Origin: Ulva prolifera
Taxonomy: Eukaryota > Chlorophyta > Ulvophyceae > Ulvales > Ulvaceae
Direction of reading: 5' to 3'
DNA: 64,000 bases
Assembly: GCA_023078555.1 (NCBI GenBank)
Contig: CM041199.1
Span: 6,267,315-6,331,314, forward strand
Shown: positions 5,006 through 32,169 of the stretch, in pieces
How positions within the stretch are numbered: the first letter of the stretch is position 1
Layout of the letters: every line of letters starts with the position of its first letter
Position numbers and translations under genes: made by a program
The notes under the pieces: model-generated
Database searches by the model: none
The model's input: the letters and a program-made list of their open reading frames with translations, nothing else
Told to the model about the DNA's origin: nothing

Positions 5006-5760
5006 GGTCAGCACATGCACAAACCGGCACTTCATGCACAATGCCATATAAACATATCAAAACATGAGAGAGAGGCCTGACCGAGCCATGCACAGCGCAT
5101 AGGGAGCAGTTTTGTGGCAATGCATGGGCTGCGATGCCCTAGCAGGCGAGCAAATCAAGTAAATGAAAGACGTGACGAACGGCATAGTGAAATAGAGGGT
5201 GTCTCCGGTGGCCGACAGAATGCCCGCACTCTGTAAATGGTGGAGTACAGGCTCTTGCACAGCCGAATGACCGGCCTAGTGATACAGGCACTCGAGCAAC
5301 CTGTGGCACACCGCACTCGATTCCGACTGCAACAGCTATCTGCAAGCTATATTTATAGACTTTACGCCGTGCTGGCGGGGGCGGCGAGGCGTGCACGCCA
5401 GCGACGCTACGTTGCAGGTACGGAGACGTGTACCGGCGAGCTCGAGTCAGGTGATGTCTTGGTGTGTCAGCTACATGTCCCCAAAGAATCAAGGCCATAA
5501 CTGTTGCAGTGAACCTAGAGGTGCAGCCACAGTGTTCTCCTGTCATGGGGGGTGGGGGCTGCAGAGTCAGCCACACGACCACCACAGCAAAAAAGCTGAA
5601 TAGTGCGATCACCAGCTCCACTCCGGAATTGCTCACACAGCATGCACATTTGGTTATCAAGGACGTGAACTGGGTTATCCGTATTGAATTCTGCTTAGCG
5701 GTTTCAGTGACGTGCAGTGTTTTCGAAATTTGAAAGTGCCCATTTCTGTGAAAGCTGACC
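5006..5760. mobile_element. 755-bp TIR-bounded insert in satellite unit, copy 2
   Basis: This is identical as far as I can see to the insert 3019 bp upstream and sits at the same point of the satellite unit. It spread by tandem amplification of the host unit, not by a second transposition. Confidence 0.7.
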
Positions 5761-6892
5761 GTGTGCACACCTGACTCAGTGTGTGCATATGCGCCGCGCT
5801 GCTGGCTCAAATGTGAGGAATACACACAGCACACATGATCAAGGTCACACATATGTGTAGCATACACCCTTCTCATCATGCACAAGCTGTCTCAGCTCTC
5901 AAGCTCCAAGGAGCTGTGCATGCTGCTCATTCCAGCAAGAGGACACACAAAGACAAAAGTGTCAGGACAGCACACGCAGGCGGGCAATAGCCAATGGTAA
6001 AATATCGCATGCCACCTCGAGTGTACTGTGGCAGCGAGCTGGCTGCACATGTGACCTTGCAGTGGTCGGGGCTGTACCATATTGCTGGCACGTGCTCCAT
6101 GAGCCACTCATGCAGCATGCTGGAGGTGAAAACTGATGCTTTGTGAGTCGCTAAACACATGAAATACTTGTATGTGCTCTGATGTGTTAAACAGCTGCAG
6201 CTGTGGTTAACTGGAGCCCGATAGCACTGTCAGCTCAGGCCTTCAGCAACGAGACCTGTGTGCAATCCTTTCAGCACTTCCGACCCGGAGAGCACGAGTG
6301 CGAGCGACCATGTAGTAAATACGGGAATTAAATTTGGATGTAGCTGCGGACTGGGCCGATCGTGCGGCCATCCAGACACTGCTCCCTGATGAAGCGCTTG
6401 CATGCCACGGACAGCACCGGGTCGCGCTTGCAGGCCCTTGCGAACTCGGGCAGACCGCACTAGCCAGAGACGATCCACGAGAAGCAACAGAAGCATTCAT
6501 GTTGCAACTACGCGCATGATCACACACATGTGAAGAATCATCAACTATTGCGAGCAGGTCATGTGCGACAGGCGCAACGGATACAGTGATAGCCTGCGCG
6601 ACATCATCCCAGCGTGCATAGAACATACAACTGCTGCTCTCTCGTCATTAACATATCCGTCAATCGCTGCCTAGTACGCCAATGCCGGACAGGGAGCCGA
6701 AACTATGTACGAATGTGGCTGAGGTGACACGCCTCCAACAGGCGCGGGCGCGGGGTTGGCCGTGCGGCCGGGTTTGCGCCGGGTGCGGCGCCACCTGATC
6801 ACCGAATTGTGCAATGCACAGCATCCCTGATGTGCCTGAAGAGGCGGCGGCTGCAACGGACGCTTAATACGGAATTTAGAAAATGAGAATAC

Positions 6893-7641
6893 GGTCAGCA
6901 CATGCACAAACCGGCACTTCATGCACAATGCCATATAAACATATCAAAACATGAGAGAGAGGCCTGACCGAGCCATGCACAGCGCATAGGGAGCAGTTTT
7001 GTGGCAATGCATGGGCTGCGATGCCCTAGCAGGCGAGCAAATCAAGTAAATGAAAGACGTGACGAACGGCATAGTGAAATAGAGGGTGTCTCCGGTGGCC
7101 GACAGAATGCCCGCACTCTGTAAATGGTGGAGTACAGGCTCTTGCACAGCCGAATGACCGGCCTAGTGATACAGGCACTCGAGCAACCTGTGGCACACCG
7201 CACTCGATTCCGACTGCAACAGCTATCTGCAAGCTATATTTATAGACTTTACGCCGTGCTGGCGGGGGCGGCGAGGCGTGCACGCCAGCGACGCTACGTT
7301 GCAGGTACGGAGACGTGTACCGGCGAGCTCGGTGATGTCTTGGTGTGTCAGCTACATGTCCCCAAAGAATCAAGGCCATAACTGTTGCAGTGAACCTAGA
7401 GGTGCAGCCACAGTGTTCTCCTGTCATGGGGGGTGGGGGCTGCAGAGTCAGCCACACGACCACCACAGCAAAAAAGCTGAATAGTGCGATCACCAGCTCC
7501 ACTCCGGAATTGCTCACACAGCATGCACATTTGGTTATCAAGGACGTGAACTGGGTTATCCGTATTGAATTCTGCTTAGCGGTTTCAGTGACGTGCAGTG
7601 TTTTCGAAATTTGAAAGTGCCCATTTCTGTGAAAGCTGACC
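6893..7641. mobile_element. TIR-bounded insert in satellite unit, copy 3 (array edge)
   Basis: This is the same insert with a 6-bp deletion near 7330, making it 749 bp. It differs from the other two copies in its right flank. Instead of GTGTGCACACCTG the sequence continues GTCGGATCCTGTG, which is unrelated to the satellite. The array therefore ends exactly at the insert's right terminus. Confidence 0.7.
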
Positions 7642-7643
7642 GT

Positions 7644-9461
7644 CGGATCCTGTGCACATCGCCATGCATGATCATGGCATGTCATCACTATGCACGCACT
7701 CATGAGTAATGCATGCCAGTCATGCGCATGAAGCTGATATCACGTGCACGAAGCGGATATGCTGTCATCGCGCGCTGCAGATGTCTCGGTCGCGCGCCGG
7801 GGCACTCGATGAATGTGAACGCCCAAGAAGAATGCTGCTATGGGCTGTGGTCTTGCTACGCCTAGATTGTTCTACCACATTCCTGGTCAAGGTTAACGCA
7901 GCTCAGCTCGACAGCAGCGCTGCCGCAACGTTGACCTGTCTACAGCTACTAACTAGCTACTTCGCCCACTTTCAACGCCATGGCCTGCTGACCATGGCAC
8001 ACTGAATCTAACACCATCAATACCAACGCTCAAATTTGCGGGACACCATACTATGCCAGAACAAATAGCGCGCGTGCGTGCTACTGTGGGCGTGTGTCAC
8101 ACAGGACACCGTGTTGGTGTGTGCTGCGTGTGGCTTGTTGCGTGGTGTGCGGTTCCCCTGGTTGCTGCTCGCGGTGCTACCTGCCTTGCTTGCTTTGTCC
8201 TTGTAACACACAGGACATCGACAGCACAGATACACGTGAACAGTGTAAGCAGGCTTGTACCACCCGTCGGGATTCCCATCAACACTGGCGAATTTTGGGG
8301 ACATCCCGAAGCCGGCATCGGGATGGTCCCCGAGAGTTTTTTTGCGTTCACCGGCCGCAGCTGAGACTGACATGTGTAGGCATATTCAGCACGTTTACGT
8401 GCATAAGGAAGCCTGTCCATGTCTCAGAGCGGTGGCGTCGATATCGCGCTTGGTGTACATGACGAAAGCTCGTTGAGCTTTGCAGCCTGGACCATACATA
8501 CACTCCTTGCAATGACCATAGGCCATTCTGTGTGTGATTTAGGTCTTCGGCTCAAGCATCTTTGTTGGCAGTGCTGTGCAGGCTGCCTTGGTATTCTGTC
8601 ATACAGCGCCCATGATCTCTTCAGCGACCATGGCCCAAGCTCGAGCACTGTATCTCATGAGTCATGAGATATCGCATGTGGAGATAGAAGAGTGCAGTGG
8701 GGCACACAAACATTCTCAGCGCTTAAACTTCCCCCAAATATTTCCGGAAGCAGGTTCCACACAAACTGTTTCTCATGTGAGATAGCCCATTGTAAAGCAA
8801 AGGAAAGTAGACCTGAATTTTGCCCTGTAAACTGTGTGGCGGTTGCTGTTGTGTGTATGACCGTACTCACCGTCTCAATAAGCCAAAGTGACGAGCTCAA
8901 CTCCATGAGTTCTCCACGAGTCAGTGACTACCGTGCCGAGAAGTTTGATAAGCTACGGCAGTCTGCGCGCAACGTTGTCCGGGAGGCAGGGCCGGCCCCA
9001 TGCATGACCTGCGCACGTTCCAAAGTGGGGATCTGAGCCGAAGTCACTCGGCTGGCAACACGGTCGCCTGTTCCCCAAGGCGCACCATATGTGCAGACAG
9101 CGTTGCTCTCTTTATAAATAATTGCTTCATTTGGCGTGCGAATTCTCTGACATTCACTGCCGATCCAAATTGATTCTTGTGCATCGATCTCCCTGCAGCT
9201 GCCCTGCGCGTATTGCACGCCAGACCTCGCACTCTGAAAAGAAGCAGGTATGTTTATCGAGGAATGTTGTACCTTGTTGTGTTGTATGGGCTTGCCTGGA
9301 TGCCCTGCGAAGAGGAGCAGTGGCGGTATACGTAAGCTGAAGTCGAGCTGCTCCCGATCCGTAGTTGCGTGCACAACTGCATCCCACACGCACTCAGGTT
9401 GCTCCCGCTACGCTTCGAAATCAATGTTTTTTTTCGTTTCTTTTCTTTTCCCCCTCTGCAG
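7644..9461. other. Gap with no supportable gene
   Basis: Apart from the short retroposon at 8109-8206 I see only short open frames with no phase-consistent splice sites. A stretch at about 8858-9037 (plus) reads as a plausible polar peptide ending CARSKVGI and could be an exon, but nothing else supports it. Confidence 0.5.
8109..8206 (+). mobile_element. TGTAA-ended retroposon, copy R1
   Basis: The body is 98 bp and ends CTTTGTCCTTGTAA. It is flanked by the 11-bp direct repeat CACACAGGACA at 8098-8108 and 8207-8217. The 3' part matches the copies ending at 44532 and 61209, while the 5' end starts at a different point of the family. That is the signature of a 5'-truncated target-primed retroposon insertion. 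Confidence 0.8.
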
Positions 9462-10399: not shown

Positions 10400-11887
10400 A
10401 TGGCGTACTGCGGATGCGGGACCAAGGCCAACAAGGCGCGGTGGTGTGCGGTCTTTGTGCTCCTCGCACTCGCCGTCGTCTTCCTCATCGTGAACATCGT
10501 CGTCAGCCGCGACTGCAGGGTGTGCACGACTGAGAGCGTCAACGGCACCTCCACCCGCGTGTGCGAGGACCCAGGCTACGAGGCCGACCGCGATTGGGAT
10601 GGCGCGCGCCCCCCCCCCCCCCCCCCCTGCCCTGCTGGATTTGTATTATCCTTGTATTGCCGATACAAGGGGCGACATACATGGGCTGCATGTCCTGCTG
10701 TGTTGAGCCGCGCCCATGTGCGGCCCGGCTGCGGCGCTACCCGGCTCGCTGCAGCTGCCACTCACCTTCCCAAGCAGCTGCTCAACCCTCACTGACTGGA
10801 AACCGGTGCCTGCAGATGTGGAGGGCTGCTCGGAAGGCGCGGTGATCGCAACGTCGTTCCTGTTCCTCGTCTGCCTCGTCGCGGCAACAGTGCCCTGCTG
10901 TTGCATGTGCTGCTGCGCTACCGGCCCCCAGGTACCCCTCCCCCCCCCCCCCCCGGGGGGGTCCTCAATCTGCTGCTTACATTACCCCCGCACACGTGCA
11001 CTGTGGGTCGATATGCACTGTGCTCCTGAGAGCTCGAGCTCCGCACGGGCCCCGCGTGTCGCCCGCGCTTCTTGCCACCCTAGAGCTCCAGCTTCCATGC
11101 ATAACCACTCCAGCTCTGAGAGACACCCTATATGGGGTTGCCTGTGGGTGGCTGGAGGCGTGGTTGAGCGTGCATTGCTGGACTGCGCATCAGCATCCGC
11201 GAGCCGCGGTGCTCACGCTGCGACGGTTCGGCGGGCGTTCGGGCCATGCATTAATCAATCGCGCACAACGCCGAGTAAACGTCTCCCAACCGCCCGCGGC
11301 GTTGCGATCGGGCGCTCATGCATGCGCACAGCTGCCGTTGCCTGAGCCACAGTGTACCCTGTGAGTGGCACATGCTGGCAGCGGCGGGGCTGCGCACCCC
11401 TTCTGTTCTGTAATTTACATTGCCGTTGAACATTGTGGTGCGCTGTCCAGCACGGCCGACTGCATGCACATGCCGCCACCCCGCAATGCCCAGAAGAGGC
11501 ATGCATGAGTGGCGCAGGTGGCTCTTTCAAGCCGCACGTGCAGCTGTGCCACCCATGCAGCAGTGGCGTGAGGGTACCGCCCGCTGGTACTTCTGTCAGC
11601 AAACAGCCCCCCAGCGCGAACTCCCGACCTGCTGTGTCAGGCCACGGCGTTGTGCGCCATGGCATGTGCTGCAGCGTGTAGTGATTAACGCATGTGCCAC
11701 ATGCGTGCAGAAAAACGTGGACCACGCCGTCGCCATCGTCGTCAAGCCCGAAGACCCCCAGCAGGCTGGATACTACTCCCACCAGCAGGCTCCGACGTAC
11801 GGCGAGCCGGTGCAGGCGCAGCCTGTGGGGCAGCCAGTGTATGCTCAGGCGCAAGGCCAGCAGGTCAGCGGGCCGCCTGTGGTGTAG
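10400..11887 (+). CDS. Gene A: small two-membrane-span protein, three exons
   Basis: The exons are 10400-10601, 10816-10931 and 11711-11887, giving about 164 residues. Exon 1 starts MAYCGCGTKANKARWC, contains a hydrophobic span of about 22 residues (VFVLLALAVVFLIVNIVV), and continues into a loop with three cysteines. Exon 2 carries a second span (AVIATSFLFLVCLVAATV) followed by a Cys cluster, CCCMCCC, that could be acylated. Exon 3 is a soluble tail rich in P, Q and Y, ending VSGPPVV. Intron 1 has a GC donor (GATG|GCGCGC), intron 2 a GT donor (CAG|GTACCC), and both end in TGCAG. Phases agree. Gene B (32326-35957) has the same exon plan and related sequence, which supports a real family. The molecular function is unknown; a membrane adaptor is only a guess. 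Confidence 0.65.
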
Positions 11888-13441
11888 GGCCGACATGCAT
11901 GCATGCAGCTGCCGGCAGCCGCCGTGCGGCGGGGGCTGCCTCGAGGGCCGGAGGTGGGCATACCAAAGGCCGGGGCTCCATCGGGTCACAGGTAATCGTT
12001 GCCAATGGCGGAGCAGTCGCAGGAGCAGCCACCGTATACGTATGTGAACACGTTGTGTCTCCAACGTGTGTATGTGTGTTGAATATGTCAAAGTGTAGAC
12101 CGCTGCGTGGCGGAGACTGAAATCAGCGGCAGCGCCGTTGGCTGCGGGCAGGTGGGATTACCGAGGATGCATGGCGTGTGCATGCCACTGCGCGTGCCAG
12201 TGTGCCCGTGTTGCTGCAGCTACAGGCACTATTTGCCCGCTGCCCGCTAGTACAGATTGTTTGTTAGACAAGACTTGAAATTCGCTAGGGCTGCTTCAAG
12301 CGCTGCAGGGGGAAGTGGATGTGCAATAGAGTGCGAGGTGGTCGTGTGGCTTTTCATACGGCGGCACGGCTGGATGAAGCCGCGAGGGGGTGTCGTGTGA
12401 TGAAGACTCCAGTACATCGCACAGGGGGAGCACCGCGCTTGAGCCGACTGGAGCAAAACAACGCTGATGCGCGTAAAAATGAAGCCGTACTCGAGATAAC
12501 GGGGCACAGTGCAGCTGCGGCGAAACTGCATCAAAGAATGACTCTACACACCACTCCCTTTTACTTTACACCGCCTTGATGCCAATGCACGTGGCTTCCA
12601 TGGCTTATGTAGCACTCCGCGAACAGCTGATGCATGCGCAACACTGTCAAGGTGTGGACGGACCAAGCCGAGAGGGCTGGCCCTGACCTGGGCGGCGATC
12701 ACATCACAATCTCACAAACTCGCGCACCACCGCGAGCTGCGTTGGCGTGCGTGCCTATGAGTTACAATTCAATGTAATGCCACCACGCGGTCCCTTAAGG
12801 GGTCAGGCCCACACCCCGCCCTGGCGCCCGGTGAGGTGCAGTCACCACACACCCCGAAGTCTCGGAGGCACTCGGCTCTGCACGGAACACCTCGTGCACC
12901 AACTGGGCCGTCGATGCGGCCATATGCATGCCCCCCAGGCCTGAGGGTCGGCCCTGCACGCACCTACCCCGTGCATGAGCGAGCAAGCGACACGCTGTGA
13001 GCTTCAGGGTTGGCAGGCTGCTGCGTGGTGCGCAGAGTGCTGTAGCACCTGCATGGCACACACGCCAGACAACGCACATCAGAGCCACCGGCACGGCCAG
13101 CTCGGTGATCTCTGCTGTGCGCTGTGTACACGTGCTGAGACAGGTGGAACCACCCCGTAGCCACCCGCAGCTCGTGCATGCTCGTCAACACTCAACCATG
13201 TCTATACGGCCCATTGCCCCCCCCCATCCCCCTGTCTCGTTACCATCACCCTGTAGCCACCCGAGCCCATACCCTCACTCATACTACCCCGATGCCGCCG
13301 CCCCTGTGACCAGGGTCAAGGCTGCAATTTTTAATCCCCCCCCCCCCCCCCTGGTAAGCTCCATCACCCAGTGCATCCCCGGGATGCGAAGCTTCATAGC
13401 ATGTAGGGGTGAGGGTGCTCCCCCTGCGCCAGGGCGAGCCG
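11888..13441. other. Downstream flank of gene A, no clear gene (repeated at 15680-17233)
   Basis: The region holds several short open frames on both strands without phase-consistent introns. I see nothing to annotate beyond a TGCATGCATGCA cluster just after the gene A stop codon. Confidence 0.4.
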
Positions 13442-13928: not shown

Positions 13929-15502
13929 GAAGGGGTAAACCACCTGGAAACCCCCCTCAGCCGTCCGTACGCAACTCATCACTACGCAATACATTGGGCC
14001 GCCTCCTCCTGTGCTAAGCGAGGTAACTACGGCCGTACATGACCACGTGGTCACGTACAGCCGTTTCGATTCCCCAAAGCGCTTGCAGAATCGAACCCGA
14101 AATCCTGAAACGGAGAGGGTAGCTTTTAAACCGTTCTCAACCCATTGGACCCTGATGATTGGGCCCTGACGCACTGCTGCAGGCTATAGTATTAGCTAGT
14201 ACAGCGGTGCATCGGGGCCCAGCCATGGTCTGCTGGCTTCCTCCACGCCTCCTTTGCGCTTGTGGCACTGCTGCAGGCAATCCAGAGCACGGCTACCACT
14301 GTGCAGCAGCAGATGTGACCCTGGCCATTGCGAGCCGCACCTGAGAGCTTCGGCGGCGGCCTCCCCCTTGCCGTGCATGAGCCAGGGCGTCATCGCATGC
14401 ACACTGCCGCCATCCGCCCACCCAGTGCTCAGCTGCAACACTGGTGCGGAGCTCTGCGGACCACCGTCGTGTTGCTGCTGCTGCTCCACAGCAGACTTGC
14501 TCTGCCGATCGGGTATGCCGCGCGCACGGGCGTGGGCGCCGCCGCTGGTGGCCACGAGTGGGGACGGCGCCGCCCCCCCCAATGACACCTGGCACACCGG
14601 CACGCTCTTGCTGCCTTTCCACAGCGCCCTCCTGCGTGCCACAGCGCCTTTCCAGTGCCTTTGCCACAGCGCCTTTCCACAGCGCCCTCCTGCGTGCCTT
14701 TCCACAGCGCCCTCCTGCCGCCCTCCCCCCCCCCTCCCCGGGGGGGGTCCTCAATCTGCTGCTTACATTACCCCCGCACACGTGCACTGTGGGTCGATAT
14801 GCACTGTGCTCCTGAGAGCTCGAGCTCCGCACGGGCCCCGCGTGTCGCCCGCGCTTCTTGCCACCCTAGAGCTCCAGCTTCCATGCATAACCACTCCAGC
14901 TCTGAGAGACACCCTATATGGGGCTGCCTATGGGTGGCTGGAGGCGTGGTTGAGCGTGCATTGCTGGACTGCGCATCAGCATCCGCGAGCCGCGGTGCTC
15001 ACGCTGCGACGGTTCGGCGGGCGTTCGGGCCATGCATTAATCAATTGCGCACAACGCCGAGTAAACGTCTCCCAACCGCCCGCGGCGTTGCAATCGGGCG
15101 CTCATGCATGCGCACAGCTGCCGTTGCCTGAGCCACAGTGTACCCTGTGAGTGGAACATGCTGGCAGCGGCGGGGCTGCGCTGGCGCACCCCTTCTTTTC
15201 TGTAACTTACATTGCCGTTGAACATTGTGGCGCGCTGTCCAGCACGGCCGACTGCATGCACATGCCGCCACCCCGCAATGCCCAGAAGAGGCACGCATGA
15301 GTGGCTCAGGTGGCTCTTTCAAGCCGCACGTGCAGCTGTGCCACCCATGCAGCAGTGGCGTGAGGGTACCGCCCGCTGGTACTTCTGTCAGCAAACAGCC
15401 CCCCAGCGCGAACTCCCGACCTGCTGTGTCAGGCCACGGCGTTGTGCGCCATGGCATGTGCTGCAGCGTGTTGTGATTAACGCATGTGCCACATGCGTGC
15501 AG

Positions 15503-15679
15503 AAAAACGTGGACCACGCCGTCGCCATCGTCGTCAAGCCCGAAGACCCCCAGCAGGCTGGATACTACTCCCACCAGCAGGCTCCGACGTACGGCGAGCC
15601 GGTGCAGGCGCAGCCTGTGGGGCAGCCAGTGTATGCTCAGGCGCAAGGCCAGCAGGTCAGCGGGCCGCCTGTGGTGTAG
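15503..15679 (+). pseudogene. Orphan copy of gene A exon 3
   Basis: The sequence encodes the same 58-residue P/Q/Y-rich tail as 11711-11887, with an intact TGCAG acceptor and stop. Because the duplicated block begins inside intron 2, no copies of exons 1 and 2 lie upstream. It could serve as an alternative last exon for gene A, about 4.6 kb downstream of exon 2; otherwise it is dead. Confidence 0.7.
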
Positions 15680-17641
15680 GGCCGACATGCATGCATGCAG
15701 CTGCCGGCAGCCGCCGTGCGGCGGGGGCTGCCTCGAGGGCCGGAGGTGGGCATACCAAAGGCCGGGGCTCCATCGGGTCACAGGTAATCGTTGCCAATGG
15801 CGGAGCAGTCGCAGGAGCAGCCACCGTATACGTATGTGAACACGTTGTGTCTCCAACGTGTGTATGTGTGTTGAATATGTCAAAGTGTAGACCGCTGCGT
15901 GGCGGAGACTGAAATCAGCGGCAGCGCCGTTGGCTGCGGGCAGGTGGGATTACCGAGGATGCATGGCGTGTGCATGCCACTGCGCGTGCCAGTGTGCCCG
16001 TGTTGCTGCAGCTACAGGCACTATTTGCCCGCTGCCCGCTAGTACAGATTGTTTGTTAGACAAGACTTGAAATTCGCTAGGGCTGCTTCAAGCGCTGCAG
16101 GGGGAAGTGGATGTGCAATAGAGTGCGAGGTGGTCGTGTGGCTTTTCATACGGCGGCACGGCTGGATGAAGCCGCGAGGGGGTGTCGTGTGATGAAGACT
16201 CCAGTACATCGCACAGGGGGAGCACCGCGCTTGAGCCGACTGGAGCAAAACAACGCTGATGCGCGTAAAAATGAAGCCGTACTCGAGATAACGGGGCACA
16301 GTGCAGCTGCGGCGAAACTGCATCAAAGAATGACTCTACACACCACTCCCTTTTACTTTACACCGCCTTGATGCCAATGCACGTGGCTTCCATGGCTTAT
16401 GTAGCACTCCGCGAACAGCTGATGCATGCGCAACACTGTCAAGGTGTGGACGGACCAAGCCGAGAGGGCTGGCCCTGACCTGGGCGGCGATCACATCACA
16501 ATCTCACAAACTCGCGCACCACCGCGAGCTGCGTTGGCGTGCGTGCCTATGAGTTACAATTCAATGTAATGCCACCACGCGGTCCCTTAAGGGGTCAGGC
16601 CCACACCCCGCCCTGGCGCCCGGTGAGGTGCAGTCACCACACACCCCGAAGTCTCGGAGGCACTCGGCTCTGCACGGAACACCTCGTGCACCAACTGGGC
16701 CGTCGATGCGGCCATATGCATGCCCCCCAGGCCTGAGGGTCGGCCCTGCACGCACCTACCCCGTGCATGAGCGAGCAAGCGACACGCTGTGAGCTTCAGG
16801 GTTGGCAGGCTGCTGCGTGGTGCGCAGAGTGCTGTAGCACCTGCATGGCACACACGCCAGACAACGCACATCAGAGCCACCGGCACGGCCAGCTCGGTGA
16901 TCTCTGCTGTGCGCTGTGTACACGTGCTGAGACAGGTGGAACCACCCCGTAGCCACCCGCAGCTCGTGCATGCTCGTCAACACTCAACCATGTCTATACG
17001 GCCCATTGCCCCCCCCCATCCCCCTGTCTCGTTACCATCACCCTGTAGCCACCCGAGCCCATACCCTCACTCATACTACCCCGATGCCGCCGCCCCTGTG
17101 ACCAGGGTCAAGGCTGCAATTTTTAATCCCCCCCCCCCCCCCCTGGTAAGCTCCATCACCCAGTGCATCCCCGGGATGCGAAGCTTCATAGCATGTAGGG
17201 GTGAGGGTGCTCCCCCTGCGCCAGGGCGAGCCGCAGCCTGACGCGATCCTGCGCTGCGGACGTCACGCCGCCCGTGCTCAGCCTCGCACCGCAGCCGGCC
17301 GACTCTGCCGATGCGGCGCCGCGGGGCGGCAGCGGCCAGGCCGGGGCAGCGCTGCCGCGGGCCGCAGGTGGCAGCCCCGGCATGCTGCGGTGCGCGGCCA
17401 GCAGCGGCGCCCCCTGCCAGGACATGCTGCAGAGCGCACGCTGCCTGCACAGCACGCAGCAGTCAGGGGCACTCTGAGTGCGGCGCCCCACCGGCAACAC
17501 CGGTCCTTGAAGGCAAGCCCATGCATGGCTGTCGGGCTGTGTGCACTGTGAAAGTCACCCCCCGGCCTGAAGGGGTGGGCGCAGGGAGCACGCACGGTGT
17601 CGAGCAGTGGCGGACACCAGTGGCCACACCGTTACCATGGT

Positions 17642-22495: not shown

Positions 22496-22515
22496 GACAC
22501 GTGTATACACGTGTC
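22496..22515. repeat. 20-bp perfect palindrome at the transposon insertion site
   Basis: GACACGTGTATACACGTGTC is its own reverse complement and overlaps the left 8-bp target duplication of the adjacent KDZ element by three bases. It contains two CACGTG cores and may have been part of the original gene B upstream region. Confidence 0.9.
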
Positions 22516-22520
22516 ATACC
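22513..22520. repeat. Left target-site duplication of the KDZ element
   Basis: GTCATACC directly precedes the left inverted repeat and recurs immediately after the right one at 32162-32169. Confidence 0.92.
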
Positions 22521-22685
22521 AGTTATGTCTCCCGCTAAACGGGGGTCTCCCGGGTACCCAGCCGACACTAACTACACGACACGACGGCCCGGCCCGGCAG
22601 GCCCCAGCAGTTGCTCTGGGCAGGTCTGGTCGCGCCTACACGAACTGTACAGCTGCTGCCTCCAGAACGTCCCAAACACATCAGT
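22521..22685 (+). repeat. Left terminal inverted repeat of the KDZ element
   Basis: 165 bp match the reverse complement of 31996-32160 except for about four bases. A short internal palindrome, GGGTCTCCCGGGTACCCAG-like, may be part of a transposase binding site. Confidence 0.95.
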
Positions 22686-23216
22686 ATGGCATCATGATTG
22701 CTATAGTATACTGATGCTTGTGATGGTGCAAGTTACGGCGTTGCATGCAGTCGACCGTACATGTACGCATGTACGCATGTAGCGCTCCGCTGCACATAGC
22801 CACTGCTGCGCTACATTCTTTTGCATTATGGTAACTTCGTTGACACATATTGAGCACCTGGGGTGCTGACATTTCGCCAATTATCGGCTTTCTATGTGTG
22901 GAGTCCAGACTGCATTTACTCGGCGTCTTCAGATGAGGTTCGCCCAAACTGTCGACATGTATTTGACAGAGTGTTTCGATTTCAGACCGTGCAAGGTGCT
23001 CGGTAGCGACATGGCGGGTCCAATAGTGATTTTTTTTGCAGCGCTCTTGATGTATGATGATGATTGCCGCCTGGGGAAGTATGCCTTGCATCTAGAGCCT
23101 GCATAAGTTCGTTGCTCTAAATTTGCTTTTGTCTAGCATGAGTCTGGAGCATTTAGTCCTCTTGCATCGGGGAAAACTGCATTAGCAGCGGAAGAATCAA
23201 TCTGCACAAGAGCAAG

Positions 23217-26200
23217 ATGTTGCGCCGCACTAGAATCAAGCCACCACCAAAGTTGCAACCGTTCGACTTTGGCTCGGAAGGTTTTGTTCAGCCAGAAGAT
23301 AGAGAGGCTGATGTTGCAGCAGTTCAAGAGGACTTTCAAAACTTGGACATTGTACCACAGGTGGAGCAGCCTGATTATGAACCAGACTTCCTAGACCATG
23401 ACATTCATTTAGACGATGCAGACGACCACATTCTGCCAGCCTTGCAACCCCAGGTGATGCTGCAGCAAACCATCATACACGATACAGACGATGCATGGTT
23501 GACGAACAAACTTCGAGACGAGAAGGTGAGACGCTCGGTGAGGGTATTGCAAGTGGATGAGAACCGAGAAATCTTGATACTTATGCCATCACATGACCAG
23601 CGCGCACGTACCATCGGGATAGCATCAGGTCACAGCCTTTCAGGAGGGACACAAAAAGCTAGGAAAAATCCATTTTGCTTTCTGAAAATTCGTTTGTTGG
23701 CATTTGAAGATGGGGCTTTTTTCTGTTCATGGTGCACCAACCCGGGGTGTGAACGAAGTTCAGCAGTTCAAGAAAAATTTGCAGCAGAAGTCATGCGCGA
23801 GTTGCACATGGGCAAACAGTATGCCGATACATTTGGTGATGAACCTCCTTTGTGCCAGTGTGCCAATGCAGTTGTGCATATGCTCTGGGACTCTGTTGGT
23901 GATGTCGCAGACATTAACCAAGATGACTCCATGGCTTCATTTTACATGGAACATGACCCGTTCAGTGCGATCCGAAGTTACACTACAGGGCGATGCGTCA
24001 TGCATTGTGCCGTTGCTTTTGCGCATGGTGATCACAGTTGAATCAGCGATGTTATTGTTCATGGCAATCCATCGATGTGCTATCGTTGCAGAAGTACCAC
24101 AGCGCACAATTGCCTTCGGAGACCATTTATACAAGATTGTCTGCTCAAGTGGGCCAGATGCCACATGGGGTGTCCTTCGCAAGCTGAAGCAACCCCGCCG
24201 AGATAAGCTGTGGGAATGCTTGGTTTGTGACAGTGTGTTCTTGTTCCATCGTTATTGCTTGCACAAAGGATGTAGTTCTTCTTGTCGCGCATCAGTGCAT
24301 TGCCATGTCTACACGTTGTTGGTCCGCTGATGTTCAGGGATGAAGACGTCATGCATCCACTGTAAAGCGGTAGATGGCGCTCCAAAGGGAGCTGGTCTAA
24401 GTGAAGAGGCATGGAAGAGGGAGCTAGACGAATTTCTCGGGGAAGATGGCAATCGCAGGAGGACATGCATTTCGAGCGCTCATATCCCTGAGGACATCCA
24501 CAAAAGTGAGAGGTTTGATGATTACATGAGTATGCAGCTTCCATTGCTATATTTCTTGCAAGTGGTTACAGTGCATCCTCTTTGTTTTGTGAATGTTGAG
24601 CAGATGTCCTGCTTGCCTGCAGGCCTGCGAAAATCGAAGCCATCGGTATTCTATGCTAGCTCAACATCGAAAGAGTGCCCACGTTGTCATGTTAATTGCG
24701 AGGAGAAGAAGTCGCATGCTAAGTTGTTCTGCATACTTGAAGTGGAAGACATCACTATCGTCGATTATGTGTGCCCTAGTCAGTGTGGATACGCTCAACG
24801 TCTAGATGGGGGCGAGTACTGCATGCTACGGAAGCAGACTACCAGATCTGCAGCATTGGGCCACTATGAGGCCGTCTTCACTTGGGAACTTTTGTACTAC
24901 ATGCGTGATCAAATTGAAACCGGAGTATTCTATTACTCCATCCTCAAGCAGCTGATGAAATTCTATGAGAGATCACAATGGAGGGAAATCCAGCTGTGTG
25001 GGCTTCAAAGCTTATATTCAATCTTGAAGGAAGCTTTCATGGACTTCATTGACTTGATGAAATTGCCTTTGAATCATCGGTGGTGTACCTGTGAAGGGGA
25101 CCACTTGATTGCAGATGGTGTGACAGTTGCCACGCGGCGAGGCTCCATGAATTTCAATGGTGACTGGTACCCAAAGGTACAGTTACAGGGTCAGCCTCAG
25201 GTCAAAGCCCTCTTTGGATCAAAACACCAGGATCGCTTTGCTGTGACAGACAAGACGGTGCGCACATTGTTACGCCCCTTGACATCCACGGAGGGATGCC
25301 ATTATGCCCAAGTGAATGAGCTGCATGAAGTGTGCAAAGAGTGTCATGGAGGCATGAAACATTTGTTCGGTGACAATTTCCCATCACCTGCAATCCAATC
25401 TTTCTTGGATGAACTTGAAACTGGTAGTTGGCGCGTGCCCAAGTGGTCACGTGGTTTCCTCAGAGAAATCTCTGCTGAGTCTCCAGCCTTGGCCATTCTG
25501 CCCGTGAAAGACATACCTCTGCTTCAGCACTGGAATGCATGTGTTCTGCAACGTTTGCGTATGATGCCGGAAACAGTTCAAGCGTGGGATCGTGAAGACG
25601 ATGCGGCGCTCAAGCAATCCTTACCTTGCTTGTGGGAATGCCTGACAACAGTGCACGACAAGGCTTCGAACAGGGAGGAGAACATGTTGTGTGATGCCTT
25701 TGCCAGTCTGGTGCAAGAGCTGATCGAGGTGTGCAAGGCGACCCTCAGCCCATCGTGTCAGCTAAGCCTAGCTTGAAGTGCGCTGCCAGACTTGCAGATG
25801 TCACTTGTAGATGTCACATGTGCAGGCGAGCAAACGGTGCTGTCTACCTGCCAAGGCTCCCGCCCAGCTTGACCATTTCCAACCACAGCAAAAGCTACGC
25901 AAATCGAGGCGAAGGTCTCAACGCATGCCTTGTCGTTCAGCAGATGAAGCAATGTACAAGAGTGGTGTCCATGTGGGCCATTTAACTGAGGAGCAGGCGC
26001 AGCGCAATGCAGGGTTGCGGCGCATGCCGTTGTTTGCCGCAGATTCGAAACTTAGCAACAAATCTGAGCACGCCTGCACCAAACACAAGTATAGCGCAGG
26101 AGCTGTCGGTCCAGGTCTAATGGTGACGTTCCCCGCAACTTGCATGATGAAGATTGTTATGACTGGGCTATACTCATGGTACATGTATGGGGCATGCTAA

Positions 26201-26925
26201 TACAATTGTGTGGTATAGATTGTCTGGTGTGTGCGGTGCAAGTGCGCAGTGGCCTGGTCCCTGATGGCAGATTCAGAGTCACCGGCCACATTGTTCGAAC
26301 TGCTTTATGTGTTCTTTCCTGCGAACCAGTCCATGCGAATTGTTTATGACAATGGTTGCAATTTCTTGCAATACGCATTGAACAGGGACCCGGTGTGGGC
26401 AGCTTCGAAAAGAGTTTTTGTGGACGAACTTCACGCCAAAGGGCACACAAATTGTGCTGCTAGCTTCGATACTGGTGAGGTTCTCCATGGTTTGGCATGA
26501 TCCCTTGCATGGCTGTGTATTTTGTTCACCCAAATTATTTTGTTCACCCCGCTCGATTCAGGCAGACTGTAGATCGATAGTCTTGTCCACGTCACCTGCA
26601 TGCAGGGTCATACAAAGACCACCAGAAGAAGAGCAAGGATCCAATTATTGCAAATCCTAGTTTTGCAGAGCAGGAGAATGCACTCCTGAAGAAGCTGAAG
26701 TCTTCGGCAGTTCATATGCGACAGACGCACTTGCTGTGGTTGGTCCGGTTTTTGTTGTATAGACAGTGGCGAAGGAAGAAGCAGCCATTTCTACATCGGA
26801 ATGCCCAATCTCAGGCAAACTGCATCCGCATACAAGAGCCGTTCATTGGGCCAAAGCCATCACAGCCTCATGAAGTCGTTCACATATTAGGGATCGTGCC
26901 GCCTGAAGATGCTGTTCAATTGTGA
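23217..26925 (+). CDS. KDZ-type transposase, six exons
   Basis: Supported exons are 23217-23964, 24092-24271, 24338-25728, 25826 to about 26178, about 26219-26474 and 26606-26925; the exon 4/5 junction is the only uncertain one. The product is about 1080 residues. Exon 1 is acidic at its N-terminus and has a Cys pair, CSWCTNPGC. Exon 3 contains CPRC and CPSQCGY zinc-type clusters and, near residue 569, CTCEGDHLIADGVTVATRR, which fits the first catalytic Asp region of this family (Cys pair then DG). Exon 5 carries RIVYDNGCNF, an NRDP motif and VDELHAKGHTNCAASFDTG, matching the YDxxC and FxVDxxHxxGHxxC blocks typical of KDZ transposases. Exon 6 is a basic helical tail. Introns have GTGCG or GTGAG-type donors and CAG acceptors. 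No internal stop remains after splicing. Expected role: cut-and-paste transposition of the 9.6-kb element. Confidence 0.75.
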
Positions 26926-26982
26926 TAATGATGATGCCTCATATGCATTTGCATTGTCAATGCAAGCAAGCTGTAAAAGATC

Positions 26983-27425
26983 GGCTGTTTCATGTCCACA
27001 GAGGCGGTGTCTGGCGTGTCAGCAGTGACACAGACCACCATGTTGCAGTCATTACTACGATTTGACTGCTATAACTTCGTCAGCAGATTATCACTTGTGT
27101 CCTCAGAATGCTGTCCAAATTTGAGATCAAACACGCAACGAATGTGTCTGTGATGACCTGAGATTGGCTGTTTCATGTCCACAGAGGCGGTGTCTGGCGT
27201 GCCAGCAGTGACACAGACCACCATGTTGCAGTCATTACTACGATTTGACTGCTATAACTTCGTCAGCAGATTATCACTTGTGTCCTCAGAATGCTGTCCA
27301 AATTTGAGATCAAACACGCAACGAATGTGTCTGTGATGACCTGAGATTGGCTGTTTCATGTCCACAGAGGCGGTGTCTGGCGTGCCAGCAGTGACACAGA
27401 CCACCATGTTGCAGTCATTACTACG
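26983..27425. repeat. 183-bp tandem repeat, 2.4 copies, between the two transposon genes
   Basis: GGCTGTTTCATGTCCACAGA recurs at 26983, 27166 and 27349. The unit contains TTTGACTGCTATAACTTCG and ends near GTGATGACCTGAGATT; copies differ at only a few bases. It lies just downstream of both convergent genes, where 3' ends, subterminal transposase sites or a replication-slippage hotspot could sit. Confidence 0.93.
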
Positions 27426-27628
27426 GAATCGAGAGTTCTTAGCTAACGCTTGACAGGCATGGTCACTTATGTGTGTGTTGCCAATCACTCTGTTGCCAAT
27501 ACAATCAGTGCGATCTGGGCCTAGGTATCATGGGTGATGCATACTATCTTAAGATCGTGGATCTTACAAAGACCTTCTACCCAACTGCGAAAACTACTTA
27601 CACACGATGAAGATTGAAGCACGGACAT

Positions 27629-30600
27629 CTAGTCTTTCTCCTGTGCAGGCGTCTCATCCAAGTGCCCCCCAGCAGGCAGACATTGTAATGCAGTAGATAC
27701 CTTGCTTCGCTGCCTGACAGCATTTGTGACTTCCTTCAGAGGGGATCGCTCACCCGCAGTGCGCTTCCGCACTGGACCCCACCGCATAGACTGTGTAGAA
27801 GCCCCAGCACAGCTGCCATCACCATCATTTGGCGTGAGCACATCTTCGCGATGTGCCACTGGCACCTCAACCATGTGTCGCCGAGCGGTTCGCCGTTGAC
27901 ATCTGCCCCACTGCTTCAGGGGCTTCTTGTTTGACAATGTAGATGCCCCAACACCATGGACCGCATCCATTGCCTGTGCTGCAGAACCTCCAATTGCTGA
28001 TGGTCGCTCTTCCATGTCCGCATCAGACGCCGCAAAATCAAGCCGGATCTGATGATGTTTCCTGCACGTTGGCTTGGGGCGGCTGACAGGTGCAGCAAGA
28101 CATTGTGTTTGAGCAGGGGTAGACTTTGACACTGACGGCACATGTTGGTGTTTCATATGTGATGCAAGCTGAGTTGGGATGTGCAAGCTTCCAACCTCAA
28201 TCACCTCTTGTTCAGTCAATTCAGATCCAAAGGTGCGACCAGGCTTGCTGTGCCTGCAAACGATGCAAGTGTGAGGCTTACTGCTCTTTGAGAAAATTGT
28301 ATACATACTGCCGTGATCACAACCGCAAGTTAATCAATATTCGCACCAGGCCTTAGCAAACTTATCGCATCCCTCCAAAAATGCACGCGCCTCTTCATTG
28401 CCAATTGCTTTCAATTGCATCCGAGCAGCATGGACCCAGGAGTATGGTGGAAAAATGTGCGCCATATCCGAAGCTTGTTGCGAAGCAGAATCATCTGATT
28501 CGATTGTGGTTGCATCGAGGCTTGTGACATACTTCCATGCTGCTAGTTTGGGGCCAAAGTGTTCATGCTGCAAACAATGAAAAAACAAGTAGAACAGCTG
28601 CCACACCGCGGGTGTCCACTGTGTAGCACACTGTATCAGCCCGAATGCCCTGCACCTGTTGAGCGTGAAGAGCTTGTGAGTCGCAGCCTACTTCAAGTAA
28701 CTTTCAGATTGGCATCAAATGTCGGTCTGCAATGTAACGCACTGGCTTGCGGACACTGCCTTGGCAAAATCCTCCGACGCAGTCAATTTGATTGGGTCAT
28801 CAAATAACTCCTTCAAGTCGCACGAATCAGACACACCACACGTCAGTAAATTCAACATGTGTTCGGTCGCCTCGCGTGCATCAAATGCGTTGTACCTGGC
28901 TTCTGCAGGTGCATGTTGACAATAAACATTCCTGCCTGCGTGAGGACTGCATACTTTCATCACATGCAAACGATCCAGATGATGGGTTGCACATACCGTT
29001 CAACACACGGAGCTTGCCTATATCTCTTGCTATCTGTGTCAAATCTAGCCGCCCATGTGCTACGTCCTGTAATGCTTTCCCAATGACAGCCTGCTTTTTT
29101 GGGTTGTTGGGATCGGATGGTGTCTTAGGTGCGACTGCAAGTTCCAAGACCTGCAGCTGTCACTGCATGATCACGTTTGCCATGCGGGGTTGCATATGTT
29201 TGTAGTATGCGGTATTGCAACCGTGATGGAACACATAGTTGTATCACACCACTTTGCTGTCTTGTAAACTCCTCCCAGCCTTGCTTTTTAGCTCAGCGGC
29301 TGCCCTCAGAGCTAATGGTCTCAGTGTGCTGTCCGGGTCCGCTAAGATGGCTGAAATTTGTAACGAGTCCGCTTGCGGGTTGTCTATTGATGAAAACAGA
29401 AATCCTTGTGTGGGATCATAGCCGAGCTTGTCTAGAACTTTCATCTTGGCTTCCTTACCAGATTTTGGATCAACAAGCTGGACGCACAAGATGCCCATAT
29501 TGTAATGCTGAACATGAGGGAAAAGCAGTTGCTGAGCATACATCGCCACAGGTTATGCAACTGACGGGTTTCATAAGCGCTGAGCATAAGTTCCACACCT
29601 TTTCTCTGCCACCGACGCTCATCACTTCAGTGGCGATATCCAGGTTGGCGCTTTCATGCCCCTCGTGTGAGGCATATCCATGATCCTGAGGCCTCCGCAC
29701 TTCACCGTGCTTGGGCTTGTAGAGGTCCAATGCATGCTTGCTCGTTGTTTTGCCAAACTTAGTCGTGTCACCAAATGTCAATTGACTGTGCATTGCACTT
29801 ACTTCCGAATCGGTGAGTCGCCCCTTGCCAAGCGAGTGGAAGTCTTCGCCACTTGTGCTTTGTAGTGTGTGGATCACGATGCTGTCCCATAGCAGCTGTG
29901 TGACGTCATATGTTGCAGCGTCATCTGCATGTGGGATGTGATCAGTATCCAATACGATGTAATTCACAACACACACGCAAGATACGAATGCAGATTGTGA
30001 CCTATGGGAACATAGGTCATGCCTGATGCAGCCTCTGGCTCTGGCTCCTCGATGGGATTCTGTAGGCCAATCACAACCAGATCACGATGCAGAGGCCCAT
30101 CTTCTTTGGGTAAAGCTGGTGCCGAGATAGTCTGCATGTGCTGCAGAAATGCAACCGCTTTCGGGCAGAGTTTGGCCCTTACTTTACGTAACACATCCTC
30201 ATAGTTGACGCTCTGCTTCCGCATGCAGTCAAAAATGCAAGGTCTGTGTCCCTTACACAACTCATTCAAGCCGTTACGCGGGACAGGCGGATCTCCACGG
30301 TAATCAAACCGGCCTGTACCAAAAAGACTGCTGACCATAACACATGGATTGTAGTTTGCATGCAGATTAAGAGTATTTGTACACTCACCACTGGTATGCT
30401 TTGTGCGTAGGCTTGTAGAGGCAGATTTGCCGGCAGTCGAAGGGGTTGCACCATAGCCCCCAGCATCTTCTGATTCCTCTTGCTCACAACCTTGAACTAC
30501 TTCCAGGGCTGGGGACGGCGATTCAGCTTTGGGCCAATAGTTGCATTCGCCCAGAAGCTCCAGACCATCAAATCCATCTGCAAATCGGACTGTCTCGGAA

Positions 30601-31681
30601 GTTTGTGATGTTTTCACAATAGATTGGTGCATGGCACCTAAGATGGCGACCTGGCAGCTCGAGGGCAGCTCAGTGAACTCCGGAGCTTTGCTGCGCATTG
30701 AATCCACCTTCAGGCGGTGCATATTTCTCTCAATGCACGCCGGGACCATGGCTTGTACATCCAACCAGTCTGGCCCGAACAGGTCCTGCAGGTGAGTGAC
30801 ATCATTGATAGCACAGCCATGCTTGCATGCAGTCCGAACACATTGTGGCCACATGCAATTTTGGAGGTGAAGACGCACATGTAGCATTGCAGATGATGCA
30901 TGATGTATGAATTGGCCACCATCAATGGCGTCACTGTGGAACACTAAGGCCCACTGCAGATCACGAGGATTAGAGAGTCGACCACTGAGTTTGTGCCATT
31001 GCATGATGAATCGTTTTGCCAAGGCTAGGATGAGCCTTTTGACTGCGGCATCACCCCCCCTTAATTGCCCGTGACGATTCCGTGTTTGTTGTGCTTGCCG
31101 CCGCCCATATTTCTGCATGCAAAGGCTACATCAAAGAAGGCGACACCGCCAATGAGGTATACATATTATAATGCGTGTTACTGTGCACACCGTTCACATC
31201 TACACAGCAGAACATTGTCGCAGTCAAGATGAAATGAGGCATATCAAATGACACAGTGGATGCAGCAGCTCACATCAAATTGGCTGATGAGTTCAAGCCA
31301 GACTTCCAAGGCTTCCACTGCCGCTGTCTTGAGTTCCACGTCACCCTCAAATTCATTTACATGTGAAAACACACTTTGTACTGCCGTGGTGATGGCCCAT
31401 TTGAAGTCACTTGTTTCCTGATGGGCTTTGCTGATGCGGCATTTCAGCAGGTCCATCTCCTCTTCATTCACCAAGGGGGCCACAGCCTGGAACCCTTTCT
31501 CGACGCCATACTTACGGCTGACACACACCAATTCACGTTGCCCAACTGCCTGCTTTAAAATGTATTCTGTGGCCGCAGCTTGCGTCGCCTTGCGCGCAGC
31601 TGCAAACCAGGAATGATCAGCAATGATCAGCCACAGACGTGATGCACAATGAGACATGATCATCCATCGCGCATGACCCAA
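27629..31681 (-). CDS. Unknown partner protein of the KDZ transposon, eight exons, about 1099 residues
   Basis: Exons (minus): 31681-31274, 31112-30002, 29924-29566, 29531-29253, 29150-28997, 28902-28760, 28567-28347 and 28253-27629. They sum to 3300 nt with every phase consistent. All junctions are GT-AG with TGCAG/TCAG acceptors except intron 6, whose donor is AAG|GCAGTG. Residues 1-136 look helical; about 137-506 include a Cys/His cluster (CMWPQCVRTACKHGC) and a DWLDVQAMVPACIERNMHRL stretch. Residues 507-720 include DVTQLLWDSIVIHTLQSTSG. The C-terminal 200 residues are basic and low-complexity, as in DNA-binding tails. I recognise no family. Position inside the inverted repeats and an undamaged frame suggest the element needs it, perhaps for target choice, DNA binding or host interaction. 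Captured host cargo is the alternative. Confidence 0.75.
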
Positions 31682-31995
31682 TTCAATCTATTGCAATGCC
31701 TGCTTATACAAGACTCGTTGGCGTTTCAAACAGCAACACGACTGGCACACCAGAAAGCATCCCGTCGAGGCCCGCGCCCACAGTATTGTCGTCCGCATCA
31801 TTACCGCTGCAATGTGGGCTCGCAGGGTCGTCTACACTCATTACGATTCGAGTGATACCTTGACTGGGGGTAACGCTATCGTAGCTGCGCTTGGCTTCGC
31901 AATCTCTGTGTACACGTTTGTAAGGACGTTCAAATTTTGTGCATGTAACGAGCTGCTAAAACACTGTCGAGCTGCAAGATACTTAAAAACATGAC

Positions 31996-32160
31996 ACTGA
32001 TGTGTTTGGGACGTTCTGGAGGCAGCAGCTGTACAGTTCGTGTAGGCGCGACCAGACCTGCCCAGAGCAACTGCTGGGGCCTGCCGGGCCGGGCCGTCAT
32101 GTTGTATAGTTAGTGTCGGCTGGGTACCCGGGAGACCCCCGTTTAGCGGGAGACATGACT
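31996..32160 (-). repeat. Right terminal inverted repeat of the KDZ element
   Basis: This is the mate of 22521-22685. One extra base (A at 32161) lies between it and the right target duplication. Confidence 0.95.
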
Positions 32161-32161
32161 A

Positions 32162-32169
32162 GTCATACC
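32162..32169. repeat. Right target-site duplication of the KDZ element
   Basis: GTCATACC is identical to 22513-22520. The flank continues into the presumed 5' region of gene B. Confidence 0.92.

Follow-up and report, generated by a model that had tools for sequence, protein, structure and literature searches.

Transposons of the KDZ superfamily are the closest described systems for the element analyzed here, a two-gene DNA transposon located in a window of 64,000 nucleotides from Ulva prolifera (contig CM041199.1, positions 6,267,315 to 6,331,314 of the forward strand). The fungal elements Kyakuja-1_LB and Kyakuja-2_LB are described with 7-bp target-site duplications and CA..TG ends but no terminal inverted repeats (TIRs), Zisupton and Dileera, placed with Kyakuja in KDZ, are described with 8-bp duplications, and KDZ elements may carry a TET/JBP gene (PMC12730594). 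Zisupton and Kyakuja are present in Chlamydomonas relatives, which are green algae (PMC8226300), and in C. reinhardtii Kyakuja-3_cRei was inserted with an 8-bp duplication (PMC10828217). The Cryptococcus elements KDZ1, KDZ2 and KDZ3 are mobile, 9-11 kb long and bounded by TIRs of 241, 139 and 169 bp, respectively (PMC12810828). Many giant families of Ectocarpus, a brown alga (KDZ, EnSpm, Sola-1), contain additional genes, mostly of unknown function, and the same source describes two-gene Harbinger elements with tail-to-tail genes (PMC12477816). The CxC7 domain of Zisupton also occurs in fish F-box proteins (PMC12062965).

The window element is best explained as a complete, probably autonomous cut-and-paste DNA transposon encoding two proteins and accompanied by short non-autonomous relatives, a reading to which we assign a probability of roughly 0.7. 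Between its TIRs and 7-bp duplications it holds two convergent genes that are both open and both constrained at the protein level between families. Dispersed copies are present in the genome, and gene-less short relatives share the TIRs and a 183-bp tandem repeat with it. The two-gene architecture is real and conserved, with gene 2 adjoining gene 1 in all four full-size elements. What stands out here is the unrecognised conserved partner gene together with the repeat of fixed length, the basic kind of transposon being already known.

Compared with fungal Kyakuja as described, the element is similar in its 7-bp duplication and in the CA at one end. It differs in its 166-bp TIRs, in a second gene other than TET/JBP, in the lack of a KDZ profile match, and in its other end, which is TA. 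Algal Kyakuja shares the occurrence in green algae, whereas the duplication described for Kyakuja-3_cRei is 8 bp rather than 7 bp. Element size (9-11 kb) and the range of TIR lengths are comparable to those given for Cryptococcus KDZ1-3; in contrast, recognised KDZ and CxC1 domains are reported there, with duplications of 8 bp (KDZ1) and 4-8 bp (KDZ2 and KDZ3). Zisupton and Dileera, although grouped with Kyakuja, differ by the 8-bp duplications described, and two-gene Harbinger elements share the tail-to-tail genes but have 3-bp duplications. The similarity to the giant Ectocarpus elements lies in the additional genes; neither these nor the Harbinger genes are known to be related to gene 2. 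The initial annotation had treated a two-gene architecture as unfamiliar for the KDZ superfamily; members carrying additional genes have, in principle, been published before. The partner gene found here is unrecognised. Within a limited literature search, neither a KDZ second gene of gene 2's kind nor 183-bp repeats in transposons were found, and queries for HMGXB3 with KDZ or for 184 bp with Chlamydomonas returned nothing relevant.

Table 1. Coordinates of the element and its parts within the window.
Feature	Position	Strand	Remarks
Left target-site duplication	22513..22519	.	GTCATAC, 7 bp
Whole transposon	22520..32161	.	9,642 bp; based on TIRs, duplication and three other two-gene elements
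TIR, gene-1 side	22520..22685	+	166 bp, end CAGTTATG
Gene 1, proposed DDE-type transposase (KDZ-like by motif)	23217..26925	+	6 exons, 1,077 aa
Gene 1 exons	23217-24027, 24092-24250, 24338-25728, 25826-26122, 26219-26474, 26606-26925	+	
FAADSK, proposed first catalytic D	26033..26050	+	FAAD invariant between families; putative catalytic role
YDNGC, proposed second catalytic D	26345..26359	+	invariant between families; putative role
VDELHAKGHTNC, histidine/cysteine block	26420..26455	+	invariant between families
FAEQEN, proposed catalytic E	26662..26679	+	invariant between families; putative role
183-bp tandem repeat	26978..27425	.	2.4 copies, between the 3' ends of both genes
Gene 2, unrecognised conserved partner	27629..31841	-	10 exons, 1,091 aa; first exon least certain
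Gene 2 exons 1-5	31841-31751, 31599-31274, 31112-30389, 30313-30002, 29924-29599	-	
Gene 2 exons 6-10	29507-29253, 29150-28997, 28902-28743, 28649-28347, 28253-27629	-	
TIR, gene-2 side	31996..32161	-	166 bp, end TAGTCATG
Right target-site duplication	32162..32168	.	GTCATAC, 7 bp

The TIRs were 97.6% identical across 165 bases, in agreement with the initially annotated inverted repeats of about 165 bp and 97% identity. The terminal pattern YAGTYATGTYTC occurred twice in the window, exactly at both element ends, compared with 0.03 occurrences expected by shuffling. A perfect 8-bp duplication had been proposed, and GTCATACC is present on both sides (22513-22520 and 32162-32169). However, the last base of the left GTCATACC is the element's own first base, so the true duplication comprises 7 bp and the span, initially given as 22521-32161, begins one base earlier. 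An 8-bp duplication was dropped because ten copies showed 7 bp with the adjoining base belonging to the element.

In all ten resolved copies the duplication measured 7 bp. It was exact in eight (the window, the C3 copy, L013, L014, L015, L016, L017 and L019) and contained one mismatch in two (the C9 copy L009 and the divergent copy), those of L009, C3 and the divergent copy being read by eye from the flanking letters. L018 (two abutting copies), L020 (damaged end) and L021-L028 (second end unresolved by the script) were excluded before counting; outside the ten-copy count, L023 showed by eye a 7-bp duplication with one mismatch. In these ten copies, whose two ends are resolved, C precedes AGTTATG and T precedes AGTCATG, the exceptions being a T before GGTCATG in the C9 copy and a T at both ends of the divergent copy. 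Compared with the window and C9 copies, the C3 copy (L010, L012) has the two TIR end variants exchanged, a pattern that recombination between the TIRs, flipping the interior, would produce.

The genome searched comprised 88.9 Mb in 44 contigs and yielded at least 38 matches to the TIR. Four two-gene elements were found: the window, the C3 copy, a copy at C9:1.01 Mb and a divergent copy at C9:491656-501443. The C3 copy was 98.6-99.1% identical to the window; its gene 2 is split by an insertion of about 19 kb, with both frames otherwise open. The copy at C9:1.01 Mb was 93.5-93.9% identical (95.3% with gaps excluded), and each of its genes contains stops as well as gaps that break the frame. In the divergent copy the genes are likewise convergent; the frame changes inside exon 3 of gene 1 and of gene 2, and the match to gene 2 exon 10 includes one stop. 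Short copies (L013-L020) measured 2.6-3.9 kb and retained TIRs, and no tblastn match to the proteins of gene 1 or gene 2 was observed in them at E 1e-3. TIRs were shared by most short copies at approximately 80-85%. TIRs, target duplication, dispersed copies and short non-autonomous copies, the marks of a class II TIR transposon, were all present. A pattern search of viral and prokaryote contigs gave 40 and 79 matches, respectively, none of them a relative.

These findings bear out the earlier view of a complete transposon; further copies, the search for which had been suggested as a check, were recovered as three other two-gene elements and the short copies, beside the window element's own TIRs, duplication and open genes. 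The proposed alga-like host was equally supported: the chlorophyll a/b-binding family had 38 matches in the genome, a large share of which were partial, as would be expected for genes split by introns. DUF3707, the pherophorin domain, had no match in the genome, and the controls were likewise silent. The element is complete-looking and probably young. Its recent origin, also part of the initial annotation, is supported by the 99% identical sister copy and the open frames but not by TIR identity: of the four TIR-TIR mismatches within 165 bases, three (positions 5, 56 and 59) recur in the C3 copy, and dating by this measure was therefore dropped.

As initially annotated, both genes are multi-exon, convergent and uninterrupted when spliced (1,077 and 1,091 amino acids), and all their introns are GT-AG. 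The exon models of both genes rest on open frames and on sequence similarity with the divergent copy rather than on transcripts. Splice dinucleotides were retained in the C3 and C9 copies wherever alignable. The initial choices of acceptor for exons 2 and 4 of gene 2 missed a conserved site or the frame and were replaced. Both the C3 and the C9 copy retain the first exon of gene 2; in the divergent copy this exon has no match, although its splice phase is compatible with that copy.

In gene 1 the motif blocks lie near the C-terminus and are invariant in the divergent copy except for the S and K of FAADSK; the core containing them was 76% identical between the two. The protein contains 43 cysteines, including eight CxC/CxxC pairs, spread along most of its length. 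Weak remnants of the gene 1 C-terminus were found at three further places in the genome (E 8.1e-5, 4.1e-4 and 0.007). For gene 2, the genome search at E up to 10 gave 45 matches, 44 of them inside the four elements and one elsewhere at E 2.28.

Between the window and the divergent copy, amino-acid identity was 59.6% for gene 1 (1,022 codons) and 46.5% for gene 2 (911 codons, exons 1 and 8 lying outside this count with no match in the divergent copy at E 1e-3). Identity at codon positions 1, 2 and 3 was 0.72, 0.77 and 0.45 for gene 1, and 0.62, 0.67 and 0.45 for gene 2. Third positions are thus far diverged while first and second positions are held, which indicates that both proteins were maintained. 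Compared with the C3 copy, the ratio of nonsynonymous to synonymous substitution rates (dN/dS) was 0.47 in gene 1. Gene 2 gave 0.37 in its right-hand part and an undefined ratio in its left-hand part, where two amino-acid changes stood against no silent ones; the two defined values are based on few changes.

The 183-bp repeat is present in 1.9 copies in the divergent element, and the C3 and C9 copies hold a 265-bp match to it, equal to 1.45 units. Arrays of 2.4-9.3 copies of a 183-bp unit were found in L013-L020 and 4.4 copies in L023, which was outside the tblastn test for the two proteins. At L063, of which one end only was obtained, 4.2 copies of a 183-bp unit (array 1261-2033) accompany one CAGTTATGTTTC terminus (0.01 expected).

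Ungapped best-rotation comparison of units gave the following identities per 183 positions: window-divergent 91, window-L014 82-83, window-L063 85, divergent-L014 99, divergent-L063 90 and L014-L063 121. Shuffled controls had means near 62 and maxima of 68-73. Unit length was exactly 183 bp across four families at 45-66% unit identity. It is held while the sequence diverges, and gene-less copies retain the array. A first gapped test on one unit pair had scored 20 against a shuffled mean of 17.3 and maximum of 25; the view that units of different families are unrelated was dropped after other scoring, more pairs and the ungapped comparison.

Two units of L014, used as queries against the genome, returned 79 matches (55 candidates, of which 40 were scored). 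Outside the TIR loci, repeats of the 183-bp type occurred at 23 places with identities of 68-82%; at three of these places the matching rows were spaced by 183 bp. The places were counted by hand, and one (L063) was read in detail and showed the same terminal motif. Examples are C1:6488079-6488881 and C25:15765-16567; having identical scores, these two may be one locus present twice.

The anatomy of the element suggests how it might move. The gene 1 product would be a DDE transposase with an RNase H fold that resembles KDZ in its YDNGC, VDELHAKGHTNC and FAEQEN motifs; it would bind the TIRs, excise the element by cutting at the YAGTYATG ends and insert it with a 7-base stagger. The gene 2 protein may be a dedicated partner for efficient movement or expression, acting in DNA binding or against silencing, and we consider it fairly probable that normal mobility needs it. 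Because copies without coding sequence keep the 183-bp repeat, it may represent a cis-acting site of fixed length. Short copies would be moved in trans by the proteins of full elements.

Several results weigh against this interpretation. Searched at E up to 10, spliced gene 1 had no match to any Pfam family, KDZ PF18758 included (HMMER filters drop most weak matches in such a search), ten open reading frame (ORF) pieces gave chance-level Pfam matches only, and the 291-residue C-terminal core of gene 1 gave no result in NCBIfam or PDB, the N-terminal 786 residues lying outside that search. Two structure models, one per gene, reached a mean predicted local distance difference test score (pLDDT) of 36.3 and 39.7, the latter for gene 1 exons 4-5 modelled with the intervening intron; this model and that of gene 2 exons 3-4 were too poor for a fold search. 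The dN/dS values against the C9 copy, 0.59 in gene 1 and 0.94 in gene 2, show the pattern of a decaying copy and are uninformative on function, and parts of the divergent copy appear to be either broken or spliced in another way. Neither movement nor an empty site, the latter proposed as a check, was observed: the joined flanks matched only the two flanks themselves. As for the repeat, L025 has a period of 189 bp, Tandem Repeats Finder detected no 183-bp array in L021, L022, L024 and L026-L028, although some of L021, L022 and L024-L028 hold partial matches, and the array could have been inherited and amplified neutrally.

A narrower form of the preferred reading is that the element is a true, Kyakuja-like KDZ member with an accessory gene of a sort already reported, and this appears slightly better than an even bet. 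YDxxC and DxxHxxGHxxC blocks are present as YDNGC and VDELHAKGHTNC, invariant in two families. We take such blocks to be marks of KDZ, Kyakuja included, and gene 1 to resemble KDZ in them. The 7-bp duplication and the CA at one end as in fungal Kyakuja, the size and TIR length like those of KDZ2 and KDZ3, the reports of Kyakuja and Zisupton in green algae and the extra genes described for giant KDZ families of a brown alga point the same way, whereas fungal Kyakuja is described without TIRs and Kyakuja-3_cRei with an 8-bp duplication. The KDZ label of the initial annotation depended on a KDZ match for the spliced transposase, and by that measure it fails. The CxC cysteine-cluster profiles, which were presumably present in the Pfam library searched, likewise gave no match, nor did any other Pfam family at E up to 10. 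A six-frame genome search with PF18758 found none at E <= 0.001 (best 3.35, elsewhere and at chance level), a test that is weak by itself as the control genomes were also silent. That silence, together with eight ORFs of the C3 insertion that matched nothing, suggests that Pfam may be blind to this element's transposase. Motif resemblance and the Kyakuja-like duplication still favor KDZ; we describe gene 1 as KDZ-like without assigning it to KDZ, its membership being not proven.

Alternatively, the element might belong to a separate DDE transposon superfamily resembling KDZ in its catalytic motifs only, which we regard as unlikely. The absence of profile matches for the spliced protein and its core, the distinctive YAGTYATGTYTC termini and the 183-bp arrays in several families are consistent with it, while the motif similarity to KDZ and the possibly poor Pfam coverage of algal elements argue against it. 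More doubtful still is a bolder proposal, in which the element represents a superfamily of its own among eukaryotic cut-and-paste transposons, requires two proteins that it encodes itself, and depends for its mobility on an internal tandem repeat with a unit of exactly 183 bp, common to autonomous and non-autonomous families throughout the genome.

It seems quite improbable that gene 2 was acquired from the host and is carried along as a passenger dispensable for transposition. Its protein had no match in Pfam at E up to 10 or in PDB at E up to 1 and a single chance-level match in NCBIfam (E 0.19), so that no function was recognised, and its dN/dS against the C9 copy would suit a passenger; its presence in both families with saturated third codon positions, and the restriction of its homologues to the four elements apart from the match at E 2.28, speak against this reading. 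That the inverted repeats are an assembly error, which the initial annotation had allowed for, has next to no probability, since three other two-gene elements with their own TIRs, flanks and duplications exist elsewhere and the two TIRs of the window differ at several bases.

With open two-gene elements occurring in one genome alongside decayed and gene-less relatives, it becomes possible to ask what a transposon of this type requires; its second protein and its repeat of constant unit length are components that can be tested. The interest of the element lies in the possibility of a two-protein transposon whose internal repeat has a fixed length, and the absent Pfam match suggests that profile-based annotation would overlook it.

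Some further observations concern insertions and neighboring sequence. L018 consists of two oppositely oriented short copies lying directly next to each other, and one of them seems to have inserted into the TIR of the other. The insertion of about 19 kb in the C3 copy extends from about 6025 in L010 through L011 to about 5390 in L012, equivalent to about 28529-28532 in the window, and has the ends CACTAG..CTAGTG with a 3-bp ATA repeat. Such ends resemble those of CACTA (EnSpm) elements. Eight long ORFs within the insertion, not verified as genes, had no Pfam match at E up to 0.1. In the left part of the window, near-identical ORFs are repeated at 2120-2872, 5139-5891 and 7026-7739, and others at 11255-12157 and 15041-15949, which suggests large local tandem duplications.

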